This document shows, one piece after another, positions 13,176-31,246 of a stretch of DNA of 46,140 nt; positions within the stretch are counted from its first letter, which is position 1; every line of letters begins with the position of its first letter. Where the stretch lies: assembly GCA_021734045.1 (NCBI GenBank), contig JAIPJR010000007.1, positions 1-46,140 of the forward strand, given 5' to 3'. Made by a program: the position numbers and the translations under genes. The DNA comes from Fidelibacterota bacterium (GTDB lineage Bacteria; Fidelibacterota; UBA8477). The notes beneath the pieces are model-generated. The model made no database searches. It was not told where the DNA came from and saw only the letters and a program-made list of their open reading frames with translations.

Positions 13176-13216
13176 GCGGGAAATATAAAGCACGCTTACA
13201 TTGTCCCACAGTAGAA

Positions 13217-13237
13217 ACCGGGTGAAGGAATCCCGGT
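13217..13237. promoter_or_regulatory. Inverted repeat in the divergent intergenic region
   Basis: ACCGGG (13217-13222) and CCCGGT (13232-13237) form a perfect 6-bp dyad with a 9-base spacer. It lies midway between the divergent starts at 13175 (minus) and 13293 (plus). This position suits an operator controlling one or both transcripts, or a leader hairpin for the minus-strand lipoprotein. No convincing -35/-10 pair was found beside it. Confidence 0.3.
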
Positions 13238-13292
13238 GGACGTTGCAATCTGGTCTCACCAAAAATATTACGCGAGGATAATGGGGAGGCAC

Positions 13293-15005
13293 ATGCCACA
13301 CCGATTCAAACAGGTTATAAAAATTCAACTCACGATTTTTTCCATGGGATTTCTGGGATTGTCCCTCATGCAATGCGGAGCCAAACCCTCACCTGACCCG
13401 GCGACGGCCTTGTCCGCAAAGTCAACGTCCGTACAACAACCGGAGATTCCACCACTCCCGGCCGGCTGGGTAGAATCACGCGGGAATAGTCGTCAGGAAG
13501 CCTGGGAAAAACTGGTGGGATCCGTTGGGCAGACCTACCGTGGTGTGAGTCAACTACAGAACCTGGTGGAGGAATCCTCACTGGGCGATTTGACTGAATA
13601 CACACGCAGCCAGGCTGAAGGACGTACCGAATCGGTAGGTTATTTGGAAAACGTGAAGGAGTACCGGGAGGGACCGCAGGTTGTTCTGCGCGTTCCCCAG
13701 CTGGAATTAACCCGGCTTGGGATCGCTAAATCTCTCAATGCCACCTACATCGGCACAACCGAAGACCCGCGTGTCATTCAGGAGATTTACACAAACATCT
13801 ACTTTATTGATGCGCCACGACAATTTGAACCCATCCTCTCAAGCCGGTTCTGGGGCGTAGCCAGCGCCTTTTATCTGGACGATTTGAATCAATTCGTTTT
13901 TTGGAATCAGGGCGGCAATGTGGATCGCATTTTCACGATACTCCAACTTCTCAATCAGGACCAATACAGCGTGACCCGCACCCAGGATCGCATCATCACT
14001 TTTGGCGGGATGACCGTGCCTGGCGATGCCTTCTTACTCCTGAGAAATGCCATCATGGCTGCCGAAAAGAGCGATTTGCTGAGTCTGGCGCTGTTAAACG
14101 CCTACCGCCAAACCGTTTTAATGAACGATCTCATGCGCCAGAATGCATTGAATACTGAAATTGAGCGACTCCGTAAGCAAATCGCCACCAATCTGCCCTA
14201 CCAGGTCCGGCAATTAAAGGCGGTTCAACAGGAACTGCCAACATATCTTGCGCCACTCCAATTGCCCGCTTCGGTGTTAGCCCGGCTTGGTCAATTGTGG
14301 GAAATTCCGCTGCAAATCAAAGTAAACCCGGCGCGCGTGGATGTTTTTACCGGGAAAATTGTCCTGAGCAACCTGCCCAAGTCCACTAACGGCCAACCAC
14401 TACCAGTTGCTGTGGACAATGCCACCGCCCTGGATAAATCGGTACGTTTTGATGGAAAAACCGGTGAACTCACCAACTTTTCCATGATTGGGAAGCAATA
14501 TCTGCGCATTTTTGTCCATGTCAGCGATTTCCTGGCATCCCTGGGATACACCGGTTACGAATATCTTAACGATCTGGCACCCGGGCAGCTCATTGAGTAC
14601 ACCACCACCGTCCCGCTCGTTTCCACGGGAGACAATAGCTTCACCCTGGATTTGCAGACCGATGATGAGGATTTAATCATGCGCATTATCAATATTTCCA
14701 AGGTGAATCAGGGCTACCACTACTATTTCTGCAATCTTATTACCAGCGGTTCGGACCGGGGGAAAATTGAGTTCCTGCCCTTCCGCAATCAACAGGGACT
14801 GCCCCTTACGGAAGCCAATTGGCGGAACGGTTACCGCGTGCCAAAATCAGACATGCAGGGACATTGGGACTTCATTATGCTCTCATCAGCAAACCCATTA
14901 TCCATTCCGGATGAGCATTTTATCGAAGCAATTGCTGATTTTGCAGAGCGGCTAGATGGTGAACACTATACATACGCCATCGCATCCATACGGGTAGGCA
15001 ATTGA
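13293..15005 (+). CDS. Lipoprotein with DUF4384-like C-terminus, first gene of the caspase/ABC cluster
   Basis: A 570-aa predicted lipoprotein. ATG 13293 is chosen because GGGGAGG ends a few bases before it; ATG 13281 is an alternative. The signal segment ends at a lipobox (LGLSLMQC, Cys ~28). Residues ~60-140 (AWEKLVGSVGQTYRG, ending VLRVPQLE) resemble the LPP20-type domain of small envelope lipoproteins. The last ~110 residues, with KIEFLPF, YRVPKSD and FIMLSSANPL, resemble DUF4384, a domain often found beside or fused to caspase-like proteins. The next gene starts 1 base after the stop and does encode a caspase-fold protein, which supports that reading. Both domain assignments are by eye. 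It may be a membrane-anchored partner of the protease. Confidence 0.75.
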   Translation: MPHRFKQVIKIQLTIFSMGFLGLSLMQCGAKPSPDPATALSAKSTSVQQPEIPPLPAGWVESRGNSRQEAWEKLVGSVGQTYRGVSQLQNLVEESSLGDLTEYTRSQAEGRTESVGYLENVKEYREGPQVVLRVPQLELTRLGIAKSLNATYIGTTEDPRVIQEIYTNIYFIDAPRQFEPILSSRFWGVASAFYLDDLNQFVFWNQGGNVDRIFTILQLLNQDQYSVTRTQDRIITFGGMTVPGDAFLLLRNAIMAAEKSDLLSLALLNAYRQTVLMNDLMRQNALNTEIERLRKQIATNLPYQVRQLKAVQQELPTYLAPLQLPASVLARLGQLWEIPLQIKVNPARVDVFTGKIVLSNLPKSTNGQPLPVAVDNATALDKSVRFDGKTGELTNFSMIGKQYLRIFVHVSDFLASLGYTGYEYLNDLAPGQLIEYTTTVPLVSTGDNSFTLDLQTDDEDLIMRIINISKVNQGYHYYFCNLITSGSDRGKIEFLPFRNQQGLPLTEANWRNGYRVPKSDMQGHWDFIMLSSANPLSIPDEHFIEAIADFAERLDGEHYTYAIASIRVGN

Positions 15006-15006
15006 C

Positions 15007-17292
15007 ATGAAGGGATCCATTTTGAATCGAATCCGGCTACCATTGACAGCTATTACCCACATAGTGATTATCTTGGCGATATGGAGCGGTGTTCTGTATG
15101 GTGAAATGGACCGATTACCGGAACGGCGTATGCTGATTATTGATAACTGGAATTATTCCGAAGATGTACTGGGCAAACTCACCGAATCGCGCTTCACAAC
15201 CGAGAAAGTCCATAATCTGGAGCGTATTTTCAATGCACCGGTGACGGTTTTTGCACAGGGCGGACCCAATTACACCATTGCAAAGCAGGATGTGCTCACA
15301 AAAATAAGCTCCTTCCTGGACAGCTTCGATGACCGCGAGGAAAGCATTGCCTATATATACATTCATGCTCACGGTGGGAAGTATGGCCCGGCTGGTGAGG
15401 AGCAGGCCTGTCTCTATTCAGAAGCCGCCCGGCTGGAAAAAGACGGAAGCTTTACTGTGAGCGAGACAATTCTGGAAGAAGAGATTGCCGGTGCCATTCA
15501 AAGCGCAAAAAATGACAATTCCCGCCTGAAAGTCTTCCTCTTCGTGGATGCCTGCAGTCAGGCGAAAAATGAGACCAAACAGACCATGTCCGATCGCCAG
15601 TTCCGCTGGGCTGATGTCACCCGGCAGCAGGCTAAAAAGCAGAAATTGACCTATCGCGATGTGGCTGATATGACCATGTTTGCCGGTCTGGGGTCTGTGC
15701 GGGAAGAGGACAACATTTACGCGCAGCTTATTGAACGCTACAACAGCAGTCACCTGAAACAGCGTCTATCCGTTGACCATTTTAAAAAAGCCGCCCGTTC
15801 CGAATTTGTGTACTACGGTTCTCATATCGCTGATGCGGTTATCCGGGAAACCCAGGCGTTGGTGCGGTTTGATGAGTTTACACCCGGCGCTGTTGTGGAA
15901 CAGAGCAGTCTGCCGGTCTTTCTCCATCAGCCCAATGTGATTTCCGCCGCCAGTTATAGTTTTACCATTCGGGAGGAACGCGGTAAATATTTTGAAGATT
16001 ATTACCTGAAACGGTCGCTGGAGCCGGGTTTGAATTACCTGTTCACGCCAGATTCCTGCCAGCAGCTCAAAGGCAGTTTGGTGCTGAAATTCCCCGGGAA
16101 TGCCACATTTGAACAGGGCGCCATGCTCAATTTTACAGTGAACGGTGATAAATACAGTGCAGCCTGGTCCACCGAGATGGGTGGATTTGTGAGCCAGCTG
16201 CTCCCGGGCCAATATGGTATGCTGAACTACAAGGAGCAGGTGGTGGCACGTCAGTTTTCCATCTCCTCCACCACCACCACGAGCTTCACGCTGCAAGAAC
16301 CTGTAAAACCCCGTGATATTTATATCCCCACGGCAGTGGAACTGAATTTTTTAAAAAAACATCAATTTGACTATATCACGCGCCTTTTTTTCCCCAATCA
16401 GGTAATTATTGATAGTGACGGATTTTTGTACAATGAGCGCCAAGTGCAGTATTTCACGGAAAACGCGTATGGCAACTTTTTCACGACCCTGAAATATGCA
16501 AAAGGCCGTTTGTATGGATTAGAGGATCGCTGGATTAATATCTCCGGTGATGATTCAGCGACAGTGGTAACCTTCCCGGAAACAATACGGAATTTTATCG
16601 TATTGGAAAATGGCGGTGGTTATGCCCTTTCGGTACAAAATCAACTGTACGAATTCACAAACGATGGGTTGATATCACCGGCTAATCTGGTTCTGGAGGG
16701 AACGGCGCGTGAAATTTTCCTGGTGGACAATCAGGTGGTCATCCTCGTGCGGGACGATTATAACCGGTATTTCGCCTACCGCTATGCCTATCAGGAAGGG
16801 CTGCTGGAAAAATTCCAGTTGGAAGGCGTGGTGTCGAATGTCTACCAGCTCAATGCGCCCTATCTGGCGCTGCGCTACCGGGATCGGATAAGGATTGTTG
16901 ATGTCAGGCAGTGGCAGGAATTGCCCCTGGTGCCTGCTTTATCCCAGAACCCCTACTTTGTGTACCACCGGGACCATTCCCTGTACATGGATTTTGACGG
17001 GCAGCTCTTCCAGGTTACCGTGACGGAAGGACAACCGGTCCAAAAACGGATGATTACGAAATTTCCCAAGGGCATTGACCCCAATAACACGGTGGTTTTC
17101 GGTCGGGCGCTTATTACGCTGAAGAGCTCCCGCAAGGGCAGCTATGTGGAGGTTATTTCTGATGAAGGTCGGGCCGAATACGATTTAAATGATGCCGTAA
17201 ATCGCATGTATCTGTATGGTCAACAGGTCTATTTCACCGGTGAACAGGTACTGCTCACCTACGCGCTCGTGGAGCGGGATTTAAAAAAATGA
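15007..17292 (+). CDS. Exported caspase-fold (clan CD) cysteine peptidase with C-terminal propeller-like region
   Basis: A 761-aa protein with an N-terminal hydrophobic signal segment (residues ~12-32, ending VLYGE). The caspase fold follows: RMLIIDNW (first strand), YIYIHAHGG with the catalytic His at ~122 before Gly, and VFLFVDACSQ with the catalytic Cys at 183. The His-Gly and Asp-Ala-Cys pair separated by ~60 residues is the clan CD (C14-like) signature. Residues ~330-425 are beta-rich. Residues ~430-761 carry recurring strand motifs (FLYNERQVQYF, GRLYGLEDRWI, NGGGYALSVQNQLYEF) that suggest a beta-propeller. The start is 1 base after the previous gene, and the stop overlaps an ATG, so it sits inside an operon. 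Most bacterial caspase homologues are cytosolic or act in signalling; export into the envelope here is inferred from the signal segment. The substrate is unknown. Confidence 0.82.
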   Translation: MKGSILNRIRLPLTAITHIVIILAIWSGVLYGEMDRLPERRMLIIDNWNYSEDVLGKLTESRFTTEKVHNLERIFNAPVTVFAQGGPNYTIAKQDVLTKISSFLDSFDDREESIAYIYIHAHGGKYGPAGEEQACLYSEAARLEKDGSFTVSETILEEEIAGAIQSAKNDNSRLKVFLFVDACSQAKNETKQTMSDRQFRWADVTRQQAKKQKLTYRDVADMTMFAGLGSVREEDNIYAQLIERYNSSHLKQRLSVDHFKKAARSEFVYYGSHIADAVIRETQALVRFDEFTPGAVVEQSSLPVFLHQPNVISAASYSFTIREERGKYFEDYYLKRSLEPGLNYLFTPDSCQQLKGSLVLKFPGNATFEQGAMLNFTVNGDKYSAAWSTEMGGFVSQLLPGQYGMLNYKEQVVARQFSISSTTTTSFTLQEPVKPRDIYIPTAVELNFLKKHQFDYITRLFFPNQVIIDSDGFLYNERQVQYFTENAYGNFFTTLKYAKGRLYGLEDRWINISGDDSATVVTFPETIRNFIVLENGGGYALSVQNQLYEFTNDGLISPANLVLEGTAREIFLVDNQVVILVRDDYNRYFAYRYAYQEGLLEKFQLEGVVSNVYQLNAPYLALRYRDRIRIVDVRQWQELPLVPALSQNPYFVYHRDHSLYMDFDGQLFQVTVTEGQPVQKRMITKFPKGIDPNNTVVFGRALITLKSSRKGSYVEVISDEGRAEYDLNDAVNRMYLYGQQVYFTGEQVLLTYALVERDLKK

Positions 17293-17339
17293 CAATCAAC
17301 CGGGCCGGCCTGTGCGCACCCATTCAAAGGCAAGGATCC

Positions 17340-20087
17340 ATGAATATGGTTAGGAAAATTTCATCACGCGTTTTGATAAGCAGTTTGCTTTCCATGATGC
17401 TCACCGGCATTGGATTTGGGGCGAATCTGACGCTGGAGCCGGTGAATACCGTGTGGTCATTTCAAAATGGCGGACAGGTGTACATCCTGCAGCAGGCCGA
17501 ACTGAATGCCGGCAACGACCTGGCACTGGACAGTAAAACGCCCATCAAACCGCTCTACATGGGTAAAATGCGGCTCGTGAACGGTAGTAAAGTGAATCTG
17601 GTTGATTCTTACACTTACGGGCAACCGGCCAGCTACACAGCCACCCCCATAACGCTCAACGATAACCTGAGAGTGGACTATTTTGAGAATACGACTGACC
17701 GTTATGAACTACCGGTGGTGAGTCCCGATGGCCGCTATGTCACGGTCAATAAATTCAATCGCCTGCAAAAAATACTGGCCGCCGTGGATCGCTCTCGTGG
17801 GAAAAACGAACTGCGGCCACTGGTCTCCCGCAGCACATCCGACGATGTTTTTTCGGCCAACAATAACCAGGGTGAGTACTACGAGCGGGATATCAGCTGG
17901 CTGGCCAACGCTGCTGCACCGAAAATTCTGTTTGTCTCCAATGGTCAGATTATGGTGGGTGAACCCAGTGGCAGCCAATTCAATGCCCAACCGGCGGGAT
18001 TTTCACACGACGGTATTCCATTTGGGCCTCAGTGGCGCAGTCGTACCGAGATTGTTTGGACCGAGAAAAACAAAATTTTGGTGGGAAATCTGGAAACCCG
18101 CACCACCAAAGCATTCTCCCGACCGGATTACGAGTCCATCCCCCGCATCGACCTGAATAAAGCTGACCCGGATTTGGTCGCCTATGTGGGTCGAAAGGGT
18201 GGCAACGCAGTAAGCGGTATTCTGAATCTGGCTACCGGTGAATTCACACAGATTGCGGGGGACAATTCAGCGGAAGCGTTTAATGTCACCTGGTCACCCA
18301 ATGGCTATGAATTGGCATATGTGCTGCTGGACTCCCGCGCCCGTCTGCGGACGTTGAACCTGTACGACATTCGTACCGGTCAGGCGCGCCAGGTCAGCAA
18401 CGAAGCGTACACCCTTACCCGGGACAGCTATCCCACCTTTTACCCCGACGGTTCAGCAATTTTTTATGTAGGTGAAGATGAGTACGGTCTGTCAAAATTA
18501 CTCTACTCCGACGCATCCAAGACTAATCAGTCCCAGGCGGTGGCGGTGAAATTTGGTGACCGGGAGGTGCAATCGGTTCAGGGTGTCGCTTTTTATCCCA
18601 ATCGGCTGGAAGAGGTTAAAAAAGGTGACAGTGGCGTAAAATTATACCTGATTGCCCAGGCGATTGCCCGGCCGGAGTTGTACGAAATCCCCCTGGGTAA
18701 GGCCAAATTGAATGGCATACCCATCAATCTGTCGCTCCCTAAAACGGCGCATAATAATTACATCGGTAGTCCCCGTGCGATCGTGTCCGTGGAGGCAACC
18801 CGCAATCAGTTCGATGACCGTTACCGGCAGGCGCAGAAGGATTATGCCAGTACGATAAAGGATGAAAAGTCCCTGGTGGCGCCACCGAAAGCCCAGCTCT
18901 CCTATCCCGCCGGGCTCACGTCAAAATGTGCCGTTTCTATGGTGGATGCAGTGAAATCGGAGCAGCAGCGCTTTGAGTCCCAATTGGCGCAACAACTGAG
19001 CAGTGAATTTGCCACATTCAAACAACAGGGACAAGCCGGACTCAATAATCTGGACCGTGAGAAACGATCTGCTGTTCGCAAAGACCCTGATTTGACGCTG
19101 GAGAAAGTTTTCGGGGAGTGGGAGGCCATTCTCAATATCCCACGGCAAAACCGGGAGCAGGCTGAGCAAGACCTGGCAACAAAATCCCGGGAATGGGAGC
19201 AAAAACTCCGTCAGGCACAGGATGCTGAGCGCTCACTCACCGCATTTTTGAACCAGCAGTCTGGTACCATCAATGGTTGGAAGACCCGCATGCAGCAATT
19301 GGTTTCCAATGCCCAGAAGCACTTCGGTTCCGGTTACCCGCAAGCCGGGAATACCGCCAGTTCGTATCCGGAGGCGTACGCTGCGATACAATCCACCATT
19401 CAGCAATCACTCACGCAGATGGAGAACCTGCAAACCTCGGCAGCGACTCGTGTGGACGGCTTTGCCCGGGAAGCCGGTTGTGATTTCCAGCAGGAATTTC
19501 AAGTCCTGCAGGGTGAAATCACGAAAGCAGTGAATGACTTGCAGGCTTTGTACAATGAATTACAGGGCTTTCAAAAGGTCTGGGACGACTACGCCGGTGT
19601 GCTGGACGAGGTGAAACAAATCTGGAGCGAATTCCAGTCCGAACTCAGCAGCGGCGATGCGCATGCAGACAATAACCGTTTGCCCAAGTACAACACCAGC
19701 CGTGAACAGCTCAAAGGGTTCTCTTCACTCCGTGGTTATTACCCCGATGAAATTGCTGATTTGAAACGGTTGGTGTATTTCATGGAAATCATGGCGTCCG
19801 GGGCATGGCCTAATCCGGCTGATAACCGGGCTGTCCTCACCCTGCAGGCCGGTGCTAATGTGGCGAAGAAAGACGGTGCCAAATGGATTCAAAGAGCGCG
19901 GAATGGCGTGATAATCCAGTATGTGAAGAGTGAGTATTTCCCCGGTGGAAAATCAGTAGCGCCCCGTAACAAGGACTTGAAGGATGTTCAGAAATATATC
20001 GCAGCGTTGGAAAAAGATCAGGAAACGGATACCCGCGATTTTGGCAAACTCCTGAAAGCCCTGGATAGCTATGAGGCCGGGAAATAG
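17340..20087 (+). CDS. Exported TolB-like beta-propeller protein with long coiled-coil region
   Basis: A 915-aa predicted periplasmic protein. ATG 17340 follows AAGGCAAGGA and gives a good signal peptide (MNMVRKISSRVLISS to GFGANL). ATG 17289 overlaps the caspase stop and is a possible coupled start. Residues ~80-470 contain WD40/TolB-type blades such as NVTWSPNGYELAYVLLDS followed by LNLYDIRTGQARQVS, and SYPTFYPDGSAIFYVGEDE. Residues ~500-780 are Gln/Glu-rich and heptad-like (EQAEQDLATKSREWEQKLRQ), predicting a long helical coiled coil. The C-terminal ~130 residues are helical with basic patches. This layout suggests a scaffold that docks peptides or partners in the periplasm. The exact family is not recognised. 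Confidence 0.78.
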   Translation: MNMVRKISSRVLISSLLSMMLTGIGFGANLTLEPVNTVWSFQNGGQVYILQQAELNAGNDLALDSKTPIKPLYMGKMRLVNGSKVNLVDSYTYGQPASYTATPITLNDNLRVDYFENTTDRYELPVVSPDGRYVTVNKFNRLQKILAAVDRSRGKNELRPLVSRSTSDDVFSANNNQGEYYERDISWLANAAAPKILFVSNGQIMVGEPSGSQFNAQPAGFSHDGIPFGPQWRSRTEIVWTEKNKILVGNLETRTTKAFSRPDYESIPRIDLNKADPDLVAYVGRKGGNAVSGILNLATGEFTQIAGDNSAEAFNVTWSPNGYELAYVLLDSRARLRTLNLYDIRTGQARQVSNEAYTLTRDSYPTFYPDGSAIFYVGEDEYGLSKLLYSDASKTNQSQAVAVKFGDREVQSVQGVAFYPNRLEEVKKGDSGVKLYLIAQAIARPELYEIPLGKAKLNGIPINLSLPKTAHNNYIGSPRAIVSVEATRNQFDDRYRQAQKDYASTIKDEKSLVAPPKAQLSYPAGLTSKCAVSMVDAVKSEQQRFESQLAQQLSSEFATFKQQGQAGLNNLDREKRSAVRKDPDLTLEKVFGEWEAILNIPRQNREQAEQDLATKSREWEQKLRQAQDAERSLTAFLNQQSGTINGWKTRMQQLVSNAQKHFGSGYPQAGNTASSYPEAYAAIQSTIQQSLTQMENLQTSAATRVDGFAREAGCDFQQEFQVLQGEITKAVNDLQALYNELQGFQKVWDDYAGVLDEVKQIWSEFQSELSSGDAHADNNRLPKYNTSREQLKGFSSLRGYYPDEIADLKRLVYFMEIMASGAWPNPADNRAVLTLQAGANVAKKDGAKWIQRARNGVIIQYVKSEYFPGGKSVAPRNKDLKDVQKYIAALEKDQETDTRDFGKLLKALDSYEAGK

Positions 20088-20814
20088 CGTGGCTATCCGG
20101 CAGCTGATCTGGCATGGTCCGGTTGTCAGTATGGTGTTTTTTATCCTACTGGCACCCACAATAGTTCGTGCCGCTGATCCAATATCCTTCATTCGCGCGA
20201 ATCGCGCCACGCTTGAAAATATCAAGGCGGTGGATACCAAGGCGGTGCTTTACCGGGAATCTATAAAACCTGCCATTAATAACAGTCAGGATACGGTGGA
20301 AAAAGCTGCCTGGCTTGTACTGGCGGGATTCGCCACCAGTGACTACCGGCAAAACTGTGCCGGTGCCGTTGCTGCCTTTCAAACGGCGCATCAGTTGGTA
20401 AAGGACATGAATCTGGATGACCGGCGGCGACTCATTGCCATTCTCGAAAATCCCGAATTCGTTGATTTCAAAGTAGCCACACGGCTGCCCATGGGTTACA
20501 ACGCTTACGCGGTAAAACGATTGGAGCAGGGGGGCAACGCGGCAGATGTCATGACCCGTCAACTCAAAGGATGGAGCGACTATTATTCCGCCATTCTGGA
20601 GTTTTTATTCCAACTCTCCCAACCCCTGGATAAATGCGGCGTCTGCCAGACCTGCCTGGACTGCCCGCTGTATAAATTCAAAGTCACGTTTTACAATTTC
20701 AAAGCACTGATGAATCAGGATGAATTCTATACACAATTGGATTTTATCAAACAGGCTGCGACCCGGGCACAGGATTTGGGTCGCGCCATTGAGAGTCGTT
20801 ATGATTTACAATAA
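20071..20814 (+). CDS. Exported protein with CxxCxxCxxC cluster, unknown function
   Basis: A 247-aa protein with a signal peptide (VVSMVFFILLAPTIVRAADP). The start is uncertain: ATG 20071 overlaps the preceding gene by 17 bases, while GTG 20089, just after that stop, has GAGG 11 bases upstream. The mature part is alpha-helical and resembles a degenerate helical-repeat protein (DTVEKAAWLVLAGFATSDYRQ). Its most striking feature is four evenly spaced cysteines, CGVCQTCLDC (189-198). These could bind a metal or Fe-S centre or form disulfides. I recognise no family. Its place between the propeller protein and the solute-binding protein suggests it works in the same envelope complex. Confidence 0.7.
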   Translation: MRPGNSVAIRQLIWHGPVVSMVFFILLAPTIVRAADPISFIRANRATLENIKAVDTKAVLYRESIKPAINNSQDTVEKAAWLVLAGFATSDYRQNCAGAVAAFQTAHQLVKDMNLDDRRRLIAILENPEFVDFKVATRLPMGYNAYAVKRLEQGGNAADVMTRQLKGWSDYYSAILEFLFQLSQPLDKCGVCQTCLDCPLYKFKVTFYNFKALMNQDEFYTQLDFIKQAATRAQDLGRAIESRYDLQ

Positions 20815-22495
20815 TGCGTGGCTATCCGCCCGTCGAATGAACGATTGGACAAGCTGCATCCTGATAGGGGCACTGCTGCTTATCATGGCCATGGTGATGA
20901 TGCCGGCGACCACCATCGCCCAATCAGGTAATCGCATTGATATGCAATTGGGGCTCACCTCCATTCCGGAAACCATGAATCCCTTTTTTGCCTACGACAC
21001 CGAGTCGGAGCAGCTGGTGGCCATGCTTTACCTAAGTCTCTACACCTACAACGAAAATCTGAGCTTGAAAGCGGAATTGGCTGATCTGGAAATCCAGTCT
21101 TTAGCCCCCAAATTTGAGGAGGGCAGTTATTCGGTGGTGATTCCCATCAAGCGGAATATTCAATGGCTCTGGCCGGACGGCAGTACCACGGATATTCGGC
21201 CGGAAGATGTGGTGACCACCTTTGAGGTACTGAAGAAGAATAAGGAAATCGCCTACCGCCAGGTGATTGAAAACATCAAAACCATTGAGGTGTACAGCAA
21301 CGGTCAGAATTCCATTAAAATCACCTGGGAACCTAACAAAGCCAGTTACGACAATCTGGACTTCATTATTCTGCCTGAACGAATTTTGAAGCGTTATGTG
21401 GACCGGGTCACCAATGTGCTGATTCCGGGGCAATTTGGCGCGCTTCAGCAGGCGTTTAGCCTGAACAGCTACCGTGGTGCCCACGCCTACCGGCTAAAGA
21501 GTTTTGAGCGGGACGGACGGCTGATTGAGCTGGAAGCTGCGCGAAATTATTCCCTGGATGGCAGTCCCATGATTGTTTCGCCCATCACGCTGGCTACCTA
21601 CGCTAATCCCCAACAGCGCTGGCGGGATTTGAATGACGGACTCATCAATTTTGTCATTGACCTGGAGCCGTCACGCCTGGCGGAAACACGCCAGAATGTC
21701 ATTGATACCCAGTCGGAAGTGAATTCGCCGGTGGTGGCGGAAGCAGTAAATACGCCCACCGTTACCGCGCTGCTCTTTAATTACCGTGGTCCCAACAAGT
21801 CATTCATCAGCAATATCAATAACCGGCGTGCCCTGGCCAACATTCTCAACACCCAGGTTCAGGCGGAGATGTTCAAAATCGCCTACGCGTATGAAATGAC
21901 CTACAACTTCGCCCAGATTGATTTGAAGGGACCCTTCGTCTCCATGGGCGAGACCATGTTTCAATCCAGCGAGTACAACTCGGTCCGGGCGTTCAGGCCG
22001 CCGCGTGAACCGTTGAAACTCATGTACCTGGCCTATTCATTAGGTTCGCCCATCGTGAGTGTGGCCAACCAGATTGCCCAGCAATTACGGGATAATGGTG
22101 TGGACTGCGAGACGGAACTTTATCAGAATAAGCGTCAATTTTACGAGGATTTGTCGCGCCTGGATCATTATGACCTGGTGTTGCATGAATGGAATGCCTC
22201 CACCCGACCGGATATCTCCATGTGGGATAGAGGTAATTTCATGAACTACACCTACACCCGGCCGAATTTCAAAGATTACTATGATCTCATCAGCCTGATT
22301 GGTAGCGGACAGTCGGAAGATTACGCCACATTTCAGCGCTATCTGTACGAAGATTGCGCGGCCATATTCCTCTGGAACCGGGACTATATCATCGCTTACA
22401 ATGACGAGGTCCACGAAAATCAATACCGCAAAGTGGTTATGGAAAAGGACCCGGCCCAGTTCACCCGGGGATTGAAGTACTGGCGATGGAAGTAA
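20801..22495 (+). CDS. Peptide-type ABC transporter solute-binding protein (SBP family 5)
   Basis: A 564-aa periplasmic binding protein of the DppA/OppA type. ATG 20801 follows GAGAG and overlaps the previous stop by 14 bases; ATG 20837 is an alternative that also yields a signal peptide (LLLIMAMVMMPATTIAQS). Family hallmarks are visible: SIPETMNPFFAYD near the mature N-terminus, the LYLSLYTYNENL segment, WLWPDGSTTDIRPEDVVTTF (the usual W.DG.p.tA.DV pattern), NRRALANILN, and a C-terminal DLVLHEWNASTRPD. There is no obvious lipobox, so it is probably soluble or N-terminally tethered. It is followed at once by two permeases and the ATPase, which makes a complete importer. The ligand is likely a peptide, but family 5 also binds nickel chelates, sugars and other solutes. 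Confidence 0.88.
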   Translation: MIYNNAWLSARRMNDWTSCILIGALLLIMAMVMMPATTIAQSGNRIDMQLGLTSIPETMNPFFAYDTESEQLVAMLYLSLYTYNENLSLKAELADLEIQSLAPKFEEGSYSVVIPIKRNIQWLWPDGSTTDIRPEDVVTTFEVLKKNKEIAYRQVIENIKTIEVYSNGQNSIKITWEPNKASYDNLDFIILPERILKRYVDRVTNVLIPGQFGALQQAFSLNSYRGAHAYRLKSFERDGRLIELEAARNYSLDGSPMIVSPITLATYANPQQRWRDLNDGLINFVIDLEPSRLAETRQNVIDTQSEVNSPVVAEAVNTPTVTALLFNYRGPNKSFISNINNRRALANILNTQVQAEMFKIAYAYEMTYNFAQIDLKGPFVSMGETMFQSSEYNSVRAFRPPREPLKLMYLAYSLGSPIVSVANQIAQQLRDNGVDCETELYQNKRQFYEDLSRLDHYDLVLHEWNASTRPDISMWDRGNFMNYTYTRPNFKDYYDLISLIGSGQSEDYATFQRYLYEDCAAIFLWNRDYIIAYNDEVHENQYRKVVMEKDPAQFTRGLKYWRWK

Positions 22496-23301: not shown

Positions 23302-23317
23302 GTTTTAAATAAAAGAT

Positions 23318-24280
23318 ATGTCACAACGCAGCCTCAATACAATTTTTCTCACGGTGATCCTGCTCATCATTGTGGGGCTTACGCCCCATTACGCGCCGCG
23401 CGTTAAGCTGCTGCCCCGGGAAAATCCCCACCTCACCCAGGAATGGCGCAGCGTGGAAAATCCCCTTGAGGTTGAGCCAGCCGATCCCTTCGCGGCGCCG
23501 GTTCCGGATGACCCTTTCGCCACATCTGGTCCTGACCTGCCTGCTAATAACGCCATTCAGCGCTACGCCCGCTCGGTGAACCTGAATTGGTACAACATGT
23601 CAAAACTGGCGATTGTAAAGGGTTTGTTCTTCACGCTCTTTATCGGGTTAGGATCAGCAGTCCTGATCATTCTGGGCGGACTCGTTCTGGGGGTATTTCT
23701 GGGTAGTACCGGCTATGTGCACCGGTGGCAGCGAACGACCACACATATTCGCACGCTCCTCAACGCCACCGATATCATTCCCCGCTACTTCATTGTCATT
23801 ATACTGATTCAGTTTGGTCGCAATCTGCCGGAACTTTGGAAGTTTGTTTATTACTTGCTGGTCTTTGCCGTGGTCCAGCTACCGGAAGCGGTGAAAATTT
23901 TTGAGCTGGAAACGCGGCAGATCTGTGCGAAACCTTTTTTCACCATGGCCCGCACGGTTGGTGCCACAGTGCGGCGCTTAATCGGTGATTATATTCTGGT
24001 GCTGGCAAAACCCAAGTATGTGTCCCAGTTCCTGAAGTATGTCCTCTACACGCTCTTTATGGAGTCTGCACTGTCATTTCTGCAAATCGGGTTTACGCTG
24101 GAAAATTTCTTCCGCTACAAGGTGTACACACTGGGATATATCCTGGGACGGCTTTTGCGGGAAAACCTCACCTGGTCGGATTTTGCAACCGGATTTCCCG
24201 TCCTGCTGGCAACCGTCCTTATTTTGGGAACAGTCATTCTGATCAACACTTTTTTGGCCAGGAGTCGCCGTTATGCCTGA
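23318..24280 (+). CDS. ABC transporter permease, DppC-like, divergent
   Basis: A 320-aa permease. An N-terminal helix (~8-25) is followed by a ~70-residue Pro/Asp-rich periplasmic segment, as in DppC proteins with an extended N-terminus. The core has helices near 100-125, 150-170, 175-195, 240-260 and 290-312. The EAA-type coupling loop is KPFFTMARTVGATVRRLIGDY (~205-225, the K counted as the lead residue), and the downstream LFMESALSFLQIGF matches the DppC signature (usually ...E..LSFLGLG). The stop overlaps the ATPase start by 8 bases. It presumably pairs with the preceding permease to form the transmembrane channel. Confidence 0.83.
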   Translation: MSQRSLNTIFLTVILLIIVGLTPHYAPRVKLLPRENPHLTQEWRSVENPLEVEPADPFAAPVPDDPFATSGPDLPANNAIQRYARSVNLNWYNMSKLAIVKGLFFTLFIGLGSAVLIILGGLVLGVFLGSTGYVHRWQRTTTHIRTLLNATDIIPRYFIVIILIQFGRNLPELWKFVYYLLVFAVVQLPEAVKIFELETRQICAKPFFTMARTVGATVRRLIGDYILVLAKPKYVSQFLKYVLYTLFMESALSFLQIGFTLENFFRYKVYTLGYILGRLLRENLTWSDFATGFPVLLATVLILGTVILINTFLARSRRYA

Positions 24281-26660
24281 TGCGATCCTGGATGTGCAAC
24301 ATTTTACCACCACCCTCTATCCTGATGTACGCAATCGTCAAAGTTCGGTACGCCCCACCAACCGGGACATTAATCTCACCGTTCCACCGGGGAAATGGGT
24401 CGCCATCATTGGTGAAACGGGCTGTGGGAAAAGCGTATTTCTCCAATCTGTCCTGCGAATTCCCCTTCGCGGTCTCAATGCGGATCAGCAAACCTTTGGG
24501 CAGTATGACCAGCGCGGAGAGCTTATCCAACCCAGCCGGGTGACCTGGAATTTTGGTGAGGAGGTGGTGGAAAACGCTCTGGATAGTCAATATTCTCCGG
24601 AAGAATTGGCCGCCATTCGGCAGCGCCAGGTTTTTTACATCCCCCAGAACGCCATGTCCTCACTCTATGATTACCACACACTGGAAATCGAGTTGCAACG
24701 CCGGTTGAAATTGTCACAACAACAGGGACAGGTGAATGGCGAGACGGATTTGGAGCAGATTCTGGCCGGTGCACCCATTGAAAATATGCGCAACCGTCAG
24801 CTCACCTTCTCCGGCTATTCCGGCGGGATGAAACAGCTTACCTATGTGCAGATGCTGAATCTGGTACAGCCCAAAATGGTGGTCCTGGACGAACCCACCA
24901 CGGCGGTGGATGTTCTGAATGAGCGCCTCTTTTTTCAGCATTTGCGTGATTATACGAAGACCGCCGATTTTTCCGTATTACTCATCAGTCATAACATGGA
25001 TATTCTGCGCTCCTACTTCCGCGATGACGACCTGGTCTATGTCATGTACAAAGGCGTCATGGTGGAGAAGGGACCCAAAGCGCAGCTGTTTGAAAATCCC
25101 ATCCATCCCTACACCCAATCGCTGGTGCGCTCCTTCCCCAGTCTGGACCGAGCCATGACCATTACCCAGCAAAACCTGCTGGCCAATATCCGCTATAATC
25201 TGGAGCAGCGCACCAACCTGGTGGAAAATCTCACCCTGCTCCAGACCGTTTTTCAATTCATTGACTCCATGAGCCGGGGTCAGCAATTCCTCACCAACCG
25301 TATCGATCAAGCGCTGCAAAATCCGGAAGGTGGTTTGAAGGCTATACTGGATGATTTGATTCAGCTCCAGGCGGCTTGTGACGGACCGTCAACATTTGCG
25401 GGGATAACCACTGACTCAGCCCGGCAGGAGTTGCGCGATTTTCTCAGAACGCTTCAGCAGGAGCAGATTCGTCTGGGTGATGACTCCTGCCCCTATTTCA
25501 ATCAGTGCCCCGTACGGGAGCAAATGTGCCTGCACCTTTTCCGGGTTCGAAAAAATCTGTTTGACAATGACGGCAGTCATCAGGCAAAATGTATTTCCGG
25601 CGATAAAAAAATCCTCTTCCAGTCCTTCCATGCCGAGCGCGGTGAGCAACAAGCCCCCATCATTTCAATCGAGAATCTAAGCGTGGTGCCGTCGGAGAAG
25701 TCCGGGCTGCTGAAACATAGCGTGAACCACACGGGAGACTGGCTATTACGCGATATTTCGCTCTCCATCAAACAAGGGCAAACCGTGGGGTTGGCCGGCG
25801 GTAGCGGGCAGGGAAAATCCACATTCATTAAAACACTGCTTCAGTTTCGGAACGAATACACTTACGACGAAGCAAAGTCCAAAATCAGGTATTGGGACCG
25901 GCACTACCACGAGCTGAAAAATTTTCCCCGTCGGGTACAGTATGTTCCCCAGGTCATTGATGGCGCTTTCCGGCCGGACCAGACCGCGATTGAGATTTTA
26001 CTGGAATCGTACTTTCGGGAAGAGACCAATACCCGGCGCATCAGGGAGATATTGCAGCAAAAACACTATATCGCCGAACGCTGCCTGGTGGATTTGAAAA
26101 TGGGCTGGAAAGCGTTGAATGATTGGCCGGTGACCTGGTCGGGTGGTGAAAAACAGCGCCTGCTCATCGGTCGCGCCCTGATTGCATTGGGATTATACGA
26201 AAATCAATCCGAGCACAACCAAGCCGGTGATCGCCTGCTGATTCTGGATGAACCCACCTCTTCAGTGGATGTGCTGGTGCAGGCAGAGATTCTGAATCTC
26301 CTCAATGAATTTGAAAAGCGGTATGCCTTCAGCTATCTCATTGTCAGCCACAATCTTGCCTTGCTGCGTAATCTGTGTGATATTATTTATGTCATCTATG
26401 GCGGGGAGATCATTGAAAAAATCCGCTACGATCAGTTTGAATTGACAGGGGAGCCCTGGCGGGACATGCATCCCTACACCCATGCGCTCTTTGCCGATCG
26501 TGATTTGCGCCCGGTGGAGCCCCCTCACCACCACTATTGTGTGTACTATAACAATTGTAACCTCAAAGGACTCACGGATGAAAAATGTAAACAGAAACCG
26601 CGCATCGATGACTCGCTGGACGCGTCCATTGCTTGTTGGCACATTCCTGGTGCTCAATAG
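24273..26660 (+). CDS. Fused double ABC ATPase of the DppD-DppF type
   Basis: A 795-aa protein carrying both nucleotide-binding domains of a peptide transporter in one chain. Domain 1: Walker A GETGCGKS (47-54), signature YSGGMKQ (182-188), Walker B VVLDEP (D206, E207), switch His in LLISHN. Domain 2: Walker A GGSGQGKS (509-516), signature WSGGEKQR (622-629), Walker B LLILDEPTSSVD, switch His in LIVSHN. All catalytic residues are intact, so both sites should hydrolyse ATP. Each domain ends in a Cys-rich oligopeptide-transporter tail: CPYFNQCPVREQMC (406-419) and CVYYNNCNLKGLTDEKC near the C-terminus. Such tails bind an Fe-S cluster in some characterised homologues. Separate DppD and DppF subunits are the commoner arrangement, but fusions are known. 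Confidence 0.9.
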   Translation: MPDAILDVQHFTTTLYPDVRNRQSSVRPTNRDINLTVPPGKWVAIIGETGCGKSVFLQSVLRIPLRGLNADQQTFGQYDQRGELIQPSRVTWNFGEEVVENALDSQYSPEELAAIRQRQVFYIPQNAMSSLYDYHTLEIELQRRLKLSQQQGQVNGETDLEQILAGAPIENMRNRQLTFSGYSGGMKQLTYVQMLNLVQPKMVVLDEPTTAVDVLNERLFFQHLRDYTKTADFSVLLISHNMDILRSYFRDDDLVYVMYKGVMVEKGPKAQLFENPIHPYTQSLVRSFPSLDRAMTITQQNLLANIRYNLEQRTNLVENLTLLQTVFQFIDSMSRGQQFLTNRIDQALQNPEGGLKAILDDLIQLQAACDGPSTFAGITTDSARQELRDFLRTLQQEQIRLGDDSCPYFNQCPVREQMCLHLFRVRKNLFDNDGSHQAKCISGDKKILFQSFHAERGEQQAPIISIENLSVVPSEKSGLLKHSVNHTGDWLLRDISLSIKQGQTVGLAGGSGQGKSTFIKTLLQFRNEYTYDEAKSKIRYWDRHYHELKNFPRRVQYVPQVIDGAFRPDQTAIEILLESYFREETNTRRIREILQQKHYIAERCLVDLKMGWKALNDWPVTWSGGEKQRLLIGRALIALGLYENQSEHNQAGDRLLILDEPTSSVDVLVQAEILNLLNEFEKRYAFSYLIVSHNLALLRNLCDIIYVIYGGEIIEKIRYDQFELTGEPWRDMHPYTHALFADRDLRPVEPPHHHYCVYYNNCNLKGLTDEKCKQKPRIDDSLDASIACWHIPGAQ

Positions 26661-27063
26661 CCTGTGGCTCAGTGGTTGTGCGTCCCGTCAGCCCGCATTG
26701 AATACCACCGGGTTCTCTTCTGGTGATTTTCAATGGCAAAAGGCACAGCATCACTTCCGTGATTTCCTGGTGGCGGAGGTTGCCGCGGTGATTCCCACAT
26801 CAAATTTTGACGCCATTGCCCGTCTCAAAGTACGCCTGATTGTAAACCGGGATGAGGTTATGAAGCTGGATCCAACACAAACCCGCCGGGTGTTTTACGT
26901 GGGTCCCCGTGAGGGGAAATGGGTTTTCGAGCGAGAACAGATTCAGCCGCCGATTATGCAGGAGGGGCATACACTCACCAAAGGAGATCTGGTCATGCTC
27001 TATTTTCAGGAAGATTCACCCTTCCCGTCCGCCGAGGGAATCGAAATTGCATTCGCGAAATAG
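26578..27063 (+). CDS. Small envelope lipoprotein, unknown function
   Basis: A 161-aa predicted lipoprotein. ATG 26578 is chosen because AAGGA lies 7 bases upstream and the signal reads VGTFLVLNSLWLSGC, a clear lipobox. The 5' end overlaps the ATPase gene by 83 bases in another frame. The mature protein is short, with a basic/beta C-terminal half (RRVFYVGPREGKWVFEREQI, GDLVMLYFQEDSPF). No family is recognised. Its dense overlap with the ATPase gene implies co-expression with the transporter. Confidence 0.7.
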   Translation: MKNVNRNRASMTRWTRPLLVGTFLVLNSLWLSGCASRQPALNTTGFSSGDFQWQKAQHHFRDFLVAEVAAVIPTSNFDAIARLKVRLIVNRDEVMKLDPTQTRRVFYVGPREGKWVFEREQIQPPIMQEGHTLTKGDLVMLYFQEDSPFPSAEGIEIAFAK

Positions 27064-27142
27064 CAAAAAAATTCTATGCAGAATTGTTTAACAATGACCA
27101 ATTGCCTGCAATCATTGATTGGGGCAGGGGAGGTATAAAGGG

Positions 27143-27967
27143 ATGCGAAACACATTCCGACTGGTTGTCATGCTCACCGGTTTAATCTCATTAGCCTGGG
27201 CGCAAACCAACATCAAGGTGACCTGTAATGTCCGCAATGCGGAATTCTATTATGTGGCCACCACAGAAGGTGGTATCCGGTATCTGGAAGAAAATGGCTT
27301 GCAGAATTTCCTGGAATCCCAACGGGGAAAACTAAAAGGTCCTTTTATTTTTGATTTTGAAATCGCGCTGGCCAATGTAGGCGGACCGGATGAGACCCAC
27401 TTTTTCGTCCTGCTCCGCAAAAAAGGGTACCGTGATTACTACAAAATCTACCCCATTCAACCCAATATCAACATTACCTGGCATTCCAAACGGGGACCCA
27501 TTTATTATCCGCTTACACCGGTTCTGGGTGTAATTCCCGGTGTGGTACTGCCCTTAGGTACGCCCCAATTTGTGCAGGATAAAAGCGGACGGGGCAAATT
27601 TCACCTCTGGACCCAGATCTTGACTGTGGGTGCCGCCACCTCCTTCAATTTTCTGGCGGAGGACGCCCGCTCCAAGCATCTGGATGCCCGTGAACGCTCC
27701 ATGGACATGAGTCTGCCGCTGGAAGAGCGGATAACGGCCGCGCAGGATGATAACGACTATATTGATCAGTACGACCAGTTCGTTCAATACGGACAGTACG
27801 CTGTCATGGCCTTTGGGGCACTCTATACCTGGCAAGTTCTGGAAGGGTTACTGGCAACTCCCGGCGCCGACAGCCCCAATTGGGAGAGTCCCAAACCCCT
27901 GTTTACCGGCGGCGTCAGTCTTACCGGTTCACCCATGCTGGCAGCCGGCATTCAGATTAACTTTTGA
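27143..27967 (+). CDS. Exported protein resembling DUF5683, unknown function
   Basis: A 274-aa protein. ATG 27143 follows GGGGAGG at a workable distance and begins a signal peptide (LVVMLTGLISLAWAQ). An N-terminal beta-rich part (NVRNAEFYYVATTEGG, KKGYRDYYKIYP) is followed by two hydrophobic hairpins with VIPGVVLPLGTPQFVQ, HLWTQILTVGAATSF and YGQYAVMAFGALYTWQVLEG. A PG...Q turn plus paired helices is what DUF5683-type proteins of FCB bacteria show, but that match is by eye. It ends in Phe after beta-like residues (MLAAGIQINF). It is separated from the preceding gene by 79 bases, the largest gap in the cluster, so an internal promoter is possible. Confidence 0.68.
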   Translation: MRNTFRLVVMLTGLISLAWAQTNIKVTCNVRNAEFYYVATTEGGIRYLEENGLQNFLESQRGKLKGPFIFDFEIALANVGGPDETHFFVLLRKKGYRDYYKIYPIQPNINITWHSKRGPIYYPLTPVLGVIPGVVLPLGTPQFVQDKSGRGKFHLWTQILTVGAATSFNFLAEDARSKHLDARERSMDMSLPLEERITAAQDDNDYIDQYDQFVQYGQYAVMAFGALYTWQVLEGLLATPGADSPNWESPKPLFTGGVSLTGSPMLAAGIQINF

Positions 27968-27978
27968 GGATATTCTTT

Positions 27979-28848
27979 ATGAAATCCATACACACATTTA
28001 AAAACCTGGGAAAAACCCTTCTGCCGGTAACCCTTGGGCTGCTGGTAGCCTGCACGAACCTGCTGGAGCCTGAACCGCTCTCGGAGAACTACAACCCCCT
28101 GGATCCGGATCACTATTCACCACCCCAAATCATCCTGGCTGATTTACCCGCCGACGGTATCACCACTAATCTGCGCCAATTGCCACTGAGCTTTGGGGGT
28201 GATTGGGCTGAGCTGACTCAATATCGCTGGCAGACAGGAATCAGCGGGCATTTGTCAGCCTGGACAGAATGGCGTGATGGTGGTACCTTCTCCGATTCAG
28301 CAAACCTCTACCAGGGGCTCTTGGATACGCTGTTCCTGGATGAAACCTATGGTACGGAATCCTTTACCGTAAAAATCCAGGCCAAATATTCCAGTGAAAC
28401 TACCGCGTCCGATTCGCTCACCCGGATTTTTACCGTTGACGCGCTCCAATCACCCACTGCTGTGCTGCGACCTCAGGCCGTTTATACCACCGGCGGGGCG
28501 TTTGAACTGGAACTCTGTTTTGACAGCATGGCAGATTGGACCGCGGCTGATCTGGTGGTGAATTTTGATTCCACCGCCATTGAATTCACTGCAGTGGTTA
28601 CGGTGAGCAATGGTGCCGGATTGAGTGTGTACGATATCGGGACGGATGCCGTGAATCTTAGCCTGGGAAATTATGGAAATGCCCAACCGGTGGTAATCAA
28701 ACTCTCCGGGCAGGCAGACGACACTCCCGGTGTATATGATATTACGCTCACAGACACGCGATTCATGGATGGTCCCACTACTTCGGATACCTTTACTGCC
28801 GAAACCACTATCAGCCGGGTAATTGTGTTGCCCGAGTCTGATGATTAA
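27979..28848 (+). CDS. Lipoprotein with cohesin-like domain
   Basis: A 289-aa predicted lipoprotein. ATG 27979 sits 8 bases after TGAGGA, and the signal peptide ends in LLVAC. Residues ~35-150 are beta-rich with FnIII- or Ig-like character (LSFGGDWAELTQYRWQTG). Residues ~155-285 follow the cohesin pattern: a GG-start strand, LVVNFDSTAIEFTAV (the usual YDP..L.f..v), a Gly-rich loop, then VVIKLSGQADDTPGVYDITL. Cohesins bind dockerins, and a dockerin-like segment is present in the giant secreted protein 16 kb upstream. The link between the two is inference. The gene overlaps the next start by one base. Confidence 0.7.
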   Translation: MKSIHTFKNLGKTLLPVTLGLLVACTNLLEPEPLSENYNPLDPDHYSPPQIILADLPADGITTNLRQLPLSFGGDWAELTQYRWQTGISGHLSAWTEWRDGGTFSDSANLYQGLLDTLFLDETYGTESFTVKIQAKYSSETTASDSLTRIFTVDALQSPTAVLRPQAVYTTGGAFELELCFDSMADWTAADLVVNFDSTAIEFTAVVTVSNGAGLSVYDIGTDAVNLSLGNYGNAQPVVIKLSGQADDTPGVYDITLTDTRFMDGPTTSDTFTAETTISRVIVLPESDD

Positions 28849-29993
28849 TGCTTTTTACTCAGGAAAGATTACGTTTAACCATGAGAAATTTTACCATCGT
28901 TTATCGCTTTGACTTGACACGGTTTCTGCGCCGTGGCGTGACGCTTGCCGCGGTATTTTTTAGCCTCCTGGCTGGTCTGAATCAACCAGTGCTGGCCCAG
29001 GAGGCCGAGTTGATTGAAATTGTCATTTACGACTTTTCCGGAAACGAGCTCACCACGGTGACGCCGGAAGAGTTTGAGTTGGTGGCACCCCAGAAAGGTG
29101 ACCGCCGATTTCGACTGGTCACAGACGAATCGGGCAAACTGTTTGTCCGTGCCCGGGAGATGCGTGCCGCTCTGGAGTCCGGCGATGTGGTGCAGCTCCG
29201 CTATATTGGGGATAATCTCCAGTACCGCTACAGCAACTCCGGCATGGTGACATATTTCGACGATATCACCTATTTGGAATTTGAGGTTTCACTGCTCTCA
29301 TCTCTGCGGATTCAACTCACCAATTTCAGTCCCATTAAGTCCGACCCGGCTGCCGATGTGGTGCGTTATGGCACAGAAGAAAATATTGCAATTGATGATA
29401 AAAACGGCTTTTTTGTTTTCGTTACCGGCGCTGGTAAACAGGAGCTGCAAATCAATATTAAGGGTTTTCAGGAAGTACGATTTGACATTAATGAAGAAGC
29501 GTTCACCACCAACCCTGAGATGAAGCGCGAGGTGAGTGTCATGCTCATTCCTGAAACCAATTATAAACTCTATTTCCGCGGCATGTACCTCATGGAATTG
29601 GGCTACTTTGCTGAAGCGGAACAGGTATTTACCCAGGCACTGGGGATTGGTACCGATCACTCTTTCAGCGAATGGCTCTATCCCAATTTCTTTATTCAAT
29701 ATTGCCGTTACAATGCCGGCAAACAGGTAGACTATAATCGCGTGCTCCAGATTGGTAATCAGGCTAAGCTGAATGATCCCCTCATGGCGGCACAGGTGTT
29801 TCACTTCCTCTATCAGGTGTATGGTCGTGTGAGCATGCCCGGTGTCCAGTCTGCCGAAGAGGTGGCATTGGCAGCCAAGCAGGCGTTGGATGAGGAGCAG
29901 CTAATTTTTGGTGATCAACGCTTTTATTATTTCAAAATCGGCAGCCGGCTCATTACTGGCATTAATGCCGCAGCAGGTGAAAAAAAAACGTAA
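28848..29993 (+). CDS. Exported TPR-like protein, N-terminal half of a frameshift-split outer-membrane protein
   Basis: A 381-aa zero-frame product. It begins with a coupled TAATG start (ATG 28881 is an alternative) and a signal peptide ending NQPVLAQE. Residues ~50-215 are beta-rich and carboxypeptidase-regulatory-like in feel (IEIVIYDFSGNELTTVTPEEF). Residues ~230-365 are helical and TPR-like (YLMELGYFAEAEQVFTQALG). The frame ends GEKKT at a TAA immediately after a run of nine A. The -1 frame is open from the same A-run for another 419 codons with no start codon near its beginning, so the two frames probably form one ~799-aa protein. Confidence 0.75.
   Translation: MLFTQERLRLTMRNFTIVYRFDLTRFLRRGVTLAAVFFSLLAGLNQPVLAQEAELIEIVIYDFSGNELTTVTPEEFELVAPQKGDRRFRLVTDESGKLFVRAREMRAALESGDVVQLRYIGDNLQYRYSNSGMVTYFDDITYLEFEVSLLSSLRIQLTNFSPIKSDPAADVVRYGTEENIAIDDKNGFFVFVTGAGKQELQINIKGFQEVRFDINEEAFTTNPEMKREVSVMLIPETNYKLYFRGMYLMELGYFAEAEQVFTQALGIGTDHSFSEWLYPNFFIQYCRYNAGKQVDYNRVLQIGNQAKLNDPLMAAQVFHFLYQVYGRVSMPGVQSAEEVALAAKQALDEEQLIFGDQRFYYFKIGSRLITGINAAAGEKKT
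29980..29988 (+). other. Nine-adenine slippery tract, candidate -1 frameshift or transcriptional-slippage site
   Basis: Frame-0 codons read GAA AAA AAA ACG TAA. Slipping back one base at A AAA AAA (29981-29987) gives AAA AAC GTA AGT and opens the downstream frame. A Shine-Dalgarno-like AGGTG lies immediately upstream. The downstream frame has a stop (TGA 29978-29980) just before the tract and no ATG, GTG or TTG before 30155. A single-base sequencing or assembly error in the homopolymer would look the same. Confidence 0.6.
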
Positions 29994-31246
29994 GTTCAGC
30001 GCTGCCAGCCCCAATACTTCCTTCAGAATCGGTATCGGCCCAACCGGTTGACACGGTTCAAACCCAACCAGAAGACGTAAACGATGCGCCAGAGGTTTTT
30101 ACTCCTTCCATTTACTGGACGGCTGCTGAATTACAGCAAATTGAACAGAATCTGGTGCCTGCTCGCCAGGTGGTAAATCCGGCTGACTGGAACAATGCCC
30201 CCAAACTGCGTCCTCAGTTCCAGGGTACTTTCTCGGCTTTCACATCCACAAATGCCATGGATTACAACTATCTGGAGGACGGTGAGGTGGGTGTCCCAAC
30301 ACGCATCCATACCTATGAAGATTCGGTGGAACACCTGTATGGCAATGGTCAAATCGCCTTCCGGTTCGGACCCCTCTCCTTTAATCTGGGATATTTTCAC
30401 GGAAATACGACCGTTGAAAATTTGAACAGTCCCGGCGCCCAAGCCCTGCGTCAAATCGGCATCCAAAAATCATGGAATGCAGGGGCCGCCCTAAATTTAT
30501 TACCAGGGCTGTCTGTGGGAGCTAACTACAATTCCCACAATTTTTCTCTGGAATATCAAAATCAACCCCTGGCTCTCTTTGATGACGGCGATTGGATAAC
30601 CATTGGCGAAGAGCAAGCTGATTATGAAACCTACGATGTGGGGGCCACCTTAAACAGCGGCAGTTTTTATCTGGGCGGGTGGGTAACTGATCTGGGGGAT
30701 GATGTGGTATGGCACGGCGGTGGTGGTGGCATCCTTGGTCAGGATACCATTCCTCTGCGCCAGACGTACCATGCGTTTTTGAGCTTTCCCTTTGTCACGT
30801 CTCGTTTGGTGCTGGGAAATCATGTGAGTTTTCAGACCTTCGAAGATTCGGCGCAGGTGATGGAGGTGTGGCTACCCACCCAGCGGATTAATGCCTCCTG
30901 GACCGCTTCGCTGAATGCCGCTTTCACGTGGCGAACGAGCCTGAGTTTATTGTACCGGGTTGACATGCGTCTGGGAGAATATACCCAGGATAAACCGGAC
31001 GATATTTATGATGATGTTGATGAATATGACGATGTGACACCGGAGGTAACGATAACCCAGAGTGTGGGTCTTCAACTCTCAGTGCCCATCGGTTCTTACC
31101 AGCTCTCCGGCTTCATCGCGCAGCAGCAGCATAATGGTATCCAGCGTAGCATCGTTCGATATAGTCCCAGCATCATCAATCTTGTGGAGCGCACCCAGGC
31201 GTATGATACAACCATCCTTGGCGTCACCCTGGCTGCCAGTTTTTAA
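29987..31246 (+). CDS. Outer-membrane beta-barrel domain, C-terminal part of the frameshift-split protein
   Basis: A 419-residue open frame that continues the TPR-like protein in the -1 frame. Residues ~1-60 of this part are a Pro/Glu/Ser-rich linker (SSALPAPILPSESV, VDTVQTQPEDV). From ~75 onward, alternating amphipathic strands with aromatic girdle residues appear (GQIAFRFGPLSFNLGYFHG, YDVGATLNSGSFYLGGW). The protein ends LGVTLAASF, the terminal-Phe signature recognised by the BAM complex. The first in-frame start is GTG 30155, which would lack a signal peptide, so independent translation would not give an exported barrel. This is the last gene of the envelope cluster and is followed by a terminator. 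Confidence 0.75.
   Translation, partial: NVSSALPAPILPSESVSAQPVDTVQTQPEDVNDAPEVFTPSIYWTAAELQQIEQNLVPARQVVNPADWNNAPKLRPQFQGTFSAFTSTNAMDYNYLEDGEVGVPTRIHTYEDSVEHLYGNGQIAFRFGPLSFNLGYFHGNTTVENLNSPGAQALRQIGIQKSWNAGAALNLLPGLSVGANYNSHNFSLEYQNQPLALFDDGDWITIGEEQADYETYDVGATLNSGSFYLGGWVTDLGDDVVWHGGGGGILGQDTIPLRQTYHAFLSFPFVTSRLVLGNHVSFQTFEDSAQVMEVWLPTQRINASWTASLNAAFTWRTSLSLLYRVDMRLGEYTQDKPDDIYDDVDEYDDVTPEVTITQSVGLQLSVPIGSYQLSGFIAQQQHNGIQRSIVRYSPSIINLVERTQAYDTTILGVTLAASF

Follow-up and report, generated by a model that had tools for sequence, protein, structure and literature searches.

A genus-restricted gene cluster of Ca. Neomarinimicrobiota places a predicted exported caspase-fold protein beside a complete Dpp/Opp-type importer

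What would an exported protein with a caspase fold do in the same run of genes as a complete importer of the Dpp/Opp type? The question is raised by positions 13293-31246 of the window, that is, of the whole stretch of DNA analysed, which has 46,140 nt and is an entire single contig of a Ca. Neomarinimicrobiota genome (G000; 2.5 Mb, 92% complete). To our knowledge, the known functions of caspase-fold proteins in bacteria are few, and cell death and signalling are the contexts in which most of them are considered. If the assignment presented here is true, an exported caspase fold in an importer operon would have a biochemical role that can be tested, namely cleavage for uptake or for sensing, in a phylum that is widespread and uncultured.

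The ORF listing gave 13 frames across this region, all of them on the + strand, and the majority overlap or sit a few bases apart. From 13293 to 27063 the genes overlap or nearly abut. The first lipoprotein gene (ending at 15005) is separated by 1 base from the caspase-fold gene (starting at 15007), which in turn overlaps the propeller gene by 4 bases (17289-17292); this one overlaps the CxxC gene by 17 bases (20071-20087), which overlaps the gene of the solute-binding protein (SBP) by about 14 bases (20801-20814). The SBP and permease 1 genes share 10 bases (22486-22495), 16 bases lie between permease 1 and permease 2 (23301/23318), permease 2 and the ATPase gene share 8 bases (24273-24280), and the ATPase gene runs about 50 bases into that of a small lipoprotein (26608-26660). 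A gap of 80 bases follows 27063, and then a second tight run (27143-29993) with the barrel part after it. The same-strand order, the overlaps, the signal segments, the HAHG/VDAC pair and the ABC motifs described in the initial annotation were each found in the sequence, and joint expression of the cluster genes is well supported. The scans for promoters and terminators gave counts no higher than those of shuffled sequences and were uninformative on the borders of the operon.

The caspase-fold protein (clan CD; 15007-17292, + strand, 761 aa) presents a signal segment, a p20-like domain at about residues 35-290 and a C-terminal part that is mostly predicted strands; residues ~430-761 look strand-rich, the full model being of low confidence. 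In the alignment of the homologues of three species, which are 70-85% identical, H122-G and D181-A-C183 are invariant. No relevant Pfam, NCBIfam or PADLOC model matched the protein, even at E<=10 in Pfam, so that the family cut-off of Peptidase_C14 (PF00656) was not reached and this family gave no match at E<=10 either. The hhalign comparison of its profile with 23 caspases of the phylum aligned only a short segment around the DAC motif, a weak test since the profile consists of three close sequences. The caspase domain was modelled alone, the whole-protein AlphaFold model being unusable (mean pLDDT 36). The domain model reaches only moderate confidence (mean pLDDT 50, with 70-84 in the core strands and helices). 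In it, four strands alternate with three helices, beginning with a strand; the third strand ends at the His and the fourth at the Cys. The best 50 Foldseek matches were caspases, metacaspases or MALT1 without exception (top E 1.1e-3), as were the best 50 of VIA-align, with Z 8.0, rmsd 3.6 and 116 residues, a Z of about 8 being a level at which chance arrangements can occur. In the latter superposition, residue 153 of the model, which is Cys183, falls on Cys285 of caspase-1. Because of this uniform family of matches and the placement of the dyad, the caspase-fold assignment is credible, and the protein probably cuts proteins. The signal segment, on which the assignment of export depends, suggests that it would do so outside the cytoplasm. 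Thus, of the exported caspase-fold enzyme claimed initially, the signal segment, the dyad and the predicted fold stood, and a family profile match was lacking. A search of a plasmid collection returned no match to this protein.

The gene upstream encodes a lipoprotein-like exported protein of 570 aa (13293-15005, + strand, its start possibly as far as 13236), with homologues confined to the genus and a dN/dS of 0.10. Its N-terminal part resembles LPP20 and its C-terminal part DUF4384, both by eye alone. The DUF4384-like label that it had received is unproven: neither Pfam nor NCBIfam gave any match, DUF4384 (PF14326) was absent by Pfam at E<=10, and hhalign against the phylum's own DUF4384 proteins gave a probability <3%, again a weak test with a profile of three close sequences. 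The accompanying statement that DUF4384 keeps company with caspase homologues is true in the phylum, where 8/20 caspase loci have a DUF4384 gene beside or close to the caspase gene; in cyanobacteria, WD40 and DUF4384 have been described as caspase partners (PMC7475262).

Downstream of the caspase-fold gene, the two exported proteins that had been proposed were confirmed. One (17289-20087, + strand, 932 aa) has a TolB/PD40-like beta-propeller, with a PD40 match, followed by a long helical/coiled-coil part. The other (20071-20814, + strand, 247 aa) carries four cysteines, C189xxC192xxC195xxC198, invariant in the alignment of the three species. A distant full-length homologue of the propeller/coiled-coil protein is present in the genome G062 (C227, 2-3690), where it adjoins a gingipain-like Peptidase_C25 gene, which encodes another clan CD protease. 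The matches to propellers of ~1050 aa in other genomes were discarded as generic, with PD40 repeats alone aligned. The CxxC protein has no homologue beyond the genus; its matches in other genera (E 0.01-0.08) look like chance or another family of CxxC enzymes, because only the Cys region of frames of ~310-320 aa was covered.

The importer (20801-26660, all on the + strand) is complete, as had been claimed, with the amendment that a single fused protein of 795 aa contains both ATPase domains. It comprises a divergent family-5 SBP, two permeases and this double ATPase, in each half of which the ATP site is intact. The SBP (20801-22495; the ORF opens at 20720 and the conserved start MIYNN is at 20801) matched SBP_bac_5 (PF00496) with E 1.7e-14 and 54.2 bits vs a cut-off of 32.4. 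A profile search against solved structures gave none at E<=0.01, and the plasmid collection gave one weak partial match. The same genome has four more family-5 binding proteins, and the one in the cluster is the most divergent of the five. Since the other four are far nearer to the family profile, the cluster SBP appears to be a specialised branch. Nickel and sugars are among the other substrates of the family, and so divergent a member may bind something other than peptides. Permease 1 (22486-23301) is DppB-like, with 6 hydrophobic segments and a PF00528 score of 30.2 bits vs a cut-off of 26.4; permease 2 (23318-24280) is DppC/OppC-like, below the PF00528 cut-off (17 vs 26.4) and recognised by the NCBIfam OppC model (E 2.6e-6). 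The fused ATPase (24273-26660), of DppD-DppF type, has two ABC_tran domains and oligo_HPY (PF08352, E 6e-11); Walker A, signature, Walker B and H-loop are each present twice, and there are two four-Cys motifs, C406/412/419/440 and C756/762/772/788. Among ATPases of solved structure, mycobacterial DppD and OppD-type proteins come nearest to it.

The genes after the importer are conserved as well. They encode, on the + strand, a small lipoprotein with the lipobox LSGC (26608-27063), an exported protein of 274 aa whose family is unassigned (27143-27967) and a lipoprotein with an LVAC lipobox, also of unassigned family and cohesin-like by eye (27979-28848). The TPR-barrel protein that had been proposed at the end of the cluster exists as a single open frame in the sister species G001, whereas here it is in two frames. 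The exported TPR part (28881-29993, + strand; TPR_2 E 0.0037, below the cut-off) stops just past a run of nine adenines (29980-29988), the sole homopolymer >=9 in the window. The barrel part (29989-31246, + strand) is read in the -1 frame with respect to the TPR part and lacks any start codon upstream of 30155. G001 has A10 at this place. G002 has A10 as well, with TTAAG after it, and there the TPR and barrel frames are offset by an identical step to that in G000. The linker of 56 codons between run and barrel has no ATG, GTG or TTG and is kept in the barrel frame (29/50 differences at third positions, dN/dS 0.21). Because this linker is conserved in the barrel frame and lacks a start codon, the arrangement points to a barrel that may be a slippage-made extension of the TPR protein or may be switched by the length of the run, or else to an indel error in 2/3 assemblies. 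The split gene offers a simple case in which to test whether an outer-membrane protein is under slippage or phase control.

The whole order of the cluster recurs in both other genomes of the genus, with protein identities of 44-93%. The caspase-fold, SBP, first lipoprotein and CxxC genes are full-length in 3/245 genomes of the phylum, all of this one genus, and none of them was found in the other 242. In G001 the same order is spread over the contigs C85, C104 and C119. In G002 one contig carries the giant gene, the lipoprotein, caspase-fold and propeller genes; a second one the propeller, CxxC, SBP and both permease genes; and a third one permease 2, the ATPase, the lipoprotein, the counterparts of 27143 and 27979, TPR and barrel, with a Wzz kinase directly after. 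The first two of these contigs overlap by 293 bases at 92% DNA identity. Both borders of the cluster are rearranged in G002, and inside it nothing is inserted or changed; in the comparison of G000 with G001, every gene tested has a dN/dS of 0.045-0.16. The cluster is therefore more than a chance neighbourhood, since three species share its order and its genes show strong purifying selection, and the kept order, changed edges and low dN/dS support the view that it is a unit under selection. The claimed linkage of caspase-fold and transporter genes holds wherever these genes occur (three genomes). Conserved order by itself is weak evidence of a joint function, because the giant gene upstream (2350-12291) also neighbours the cluster in all three species. 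This giant gene encodes a protein of 3313 aa with 31 FG-GAP repeats, five ASPIC/UnbV domains, PKD domains and a FlgD/Por-secretion-like tail. Between it and the cluster there is an opposite-strand lipoprotein-like gene (12375-13373), kept in G001 and absent at that spot in G002. On the other side, a block formed by Porin_O_P, FMN-binding and a third gene (31426-33634) is on another contig in G002, and thus moves independently of the cluster.

Which function could join these genes? We tentatively propose, as a possible reading, a genus-specific envelope operon for a peptide-like substrate, which would be cleaved outside the cell or in the envelope, the product then being imported for use or sensing. 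At the outer membrane, the substrate would be let in or anchored by the TPR-barrel protein. Its cleavage in the periplasm would fall to the caspase-fold protein, which the propeller and lipoprotein partners would hold in place, and the SBP would hand the product to the importer, to be used or sensed. Here we infer export, from the signal segments, as well as the protease activity, the peptide nature of the substrate and the coupling of protease and importer.

A somewhat more doubtful alternative is that two independent modules share one transcript and nothing but regulation: an envelope-maintenance or stress-sensing complex of lipoprotein, caspase and propeller, and an importer for another solute. 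The ordinary caspases of the phylum agree with it. PF00656, with zero matches within the genus, is found in 17/100 relatives, and sets of caspase, DUF4384 and propeller stand alone in the phylum, without importers. Among 20 caspase loci with 268 kb of flanks, a Dpp operon lies beside one, as against 0.5 expected by chance from five SBPs per 2.5 Mb. In this locus (G079:C37, 1531-12131) a canonical Dpp operon (SBP, two permeases and two ATPases), a lipoprotein, a WD40-caspase of 1119 aa and an LPP20/DUF4384 protein follow one another on one strand. We discarded it as an independent case of caspase and importer, since one match per 268 kb fits chance and the importer is absent from the four homologous loci (G030, G064, G080 and G093); a general caspase/transporter association thus found no support in these 20 loci of the phylum. 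What speaks against two separate modules is the cluster itself, where the propeller and CxxC genes overlap the caspase-fold and SBP genes, so that the modules are physically interlocked, and where the gene order is unbroken in three species.

A stronger version of the operon that we propose, which we judge unlikely, would be one assembled machine for foraging or sensing by protease-coupled import, in which slippage or a change of copy number at the poly-A run sets the presence of the TPR-barrel protein, and the periplasmic caspase-fold protease, held by its propeller and lipoprotein partners, works with its own dipeptide-type importer. It appears improbable that the exported protease and the importer jointly remove antimicrobial peptides, in the manner of SapABCDF or YejABEF. 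The protease does lie within the same operon, and among NCBIfam models YejF, of the microcin C transporter, scores best for the ATPase; however, the score is far under its cut-off and the match is generic for the Dpp/Opp family, there are no immunity or regulator genes, and the scan with PADLOC defence models gave zero matches. We give no better prospects to the processing of surface proteins. PorU processes proteins in type IX secretion, and the caspase-fold protein could likewise trim secreted proteins, for example the giant neighbour, the importer recycling their tails. The constant vicinity of that gene, its Por_Secre_tail match (E 1e-5, just under the cut-off) and the Peptidase_C25 gene beside the propeller homologue in G062 agree with this, but the structure is caspase-like and not C25-like, and no other type IX secretion part was seen in the window. 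Lastly, a non-proteolytic binding or scaffold role of the caspase-fold protein, compatible with a fold known from prediction, the missing profile match and a strand-rich C-terminal part that could dominate function, is very improbable given the dyad invariant in three species, with its Cys at the catalytic position.

The cluster can be compared with several known systems. As in the DppABCDF and OppABCDF peptide importers (PMC12136057 for E. coli DppABCDF), there are a family-5 SBP, two BPD permeases and ATPases of DppD and DppF type with a C-terminal four-Cys motif. In E. coli, the [4Fe-4S] ligands are Cys284/290/297/315 of DppD and Cys293/299/306/323 of DppF, and the first half of the cluster ATPase has the identical Cx5Cx6C spacing (PMC12136057). 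Unlike in those systems, the ATPases are fused, the SBP and permeases are very divergent, and the importer is embedded among caspase-fold, propeller, CxxC, lipoprotein and barrel genes. With the prokaryotic orthocaspases (Peptidase_C14) the cluster protein shares the predicted caspase fold, the His/Cys dyad, beta-propeller partners and possibly a DUF4384-like lipoprotein; it differs in having no C14 profile match and in being exported, tied to an importer and restricted to a genus. Gingipains and PorU (Peptidase_C25) are also exported clan CD enzymes of an FCB-group relative, and C25 reappears beside the propeller homologue mentioned above, whereas the structural matches of the cluster protein are caspases and it has no propeptide_C25. 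The split gene resembles tssM1 of Citrobacter rodentium, where an A11 run slips during transcription and yields two lengths; an A9 run in tssM3 of Yersinia slips too (PMC4256274). In both the Citrobacter gene and ours, the stop lies just past the poly-A and one extra A reaches a conserved downstream frame (PMC4256274). Slippage in our case is suggested by sequence, and the split parts a TPR protein from a barrel and is in frame in 1/3 species. In agreement with the initial annotation, the literature search found no described system with such content: each part is of a known kind, and the combination turned up neither in the literature searched nor in the rest of the phylum.
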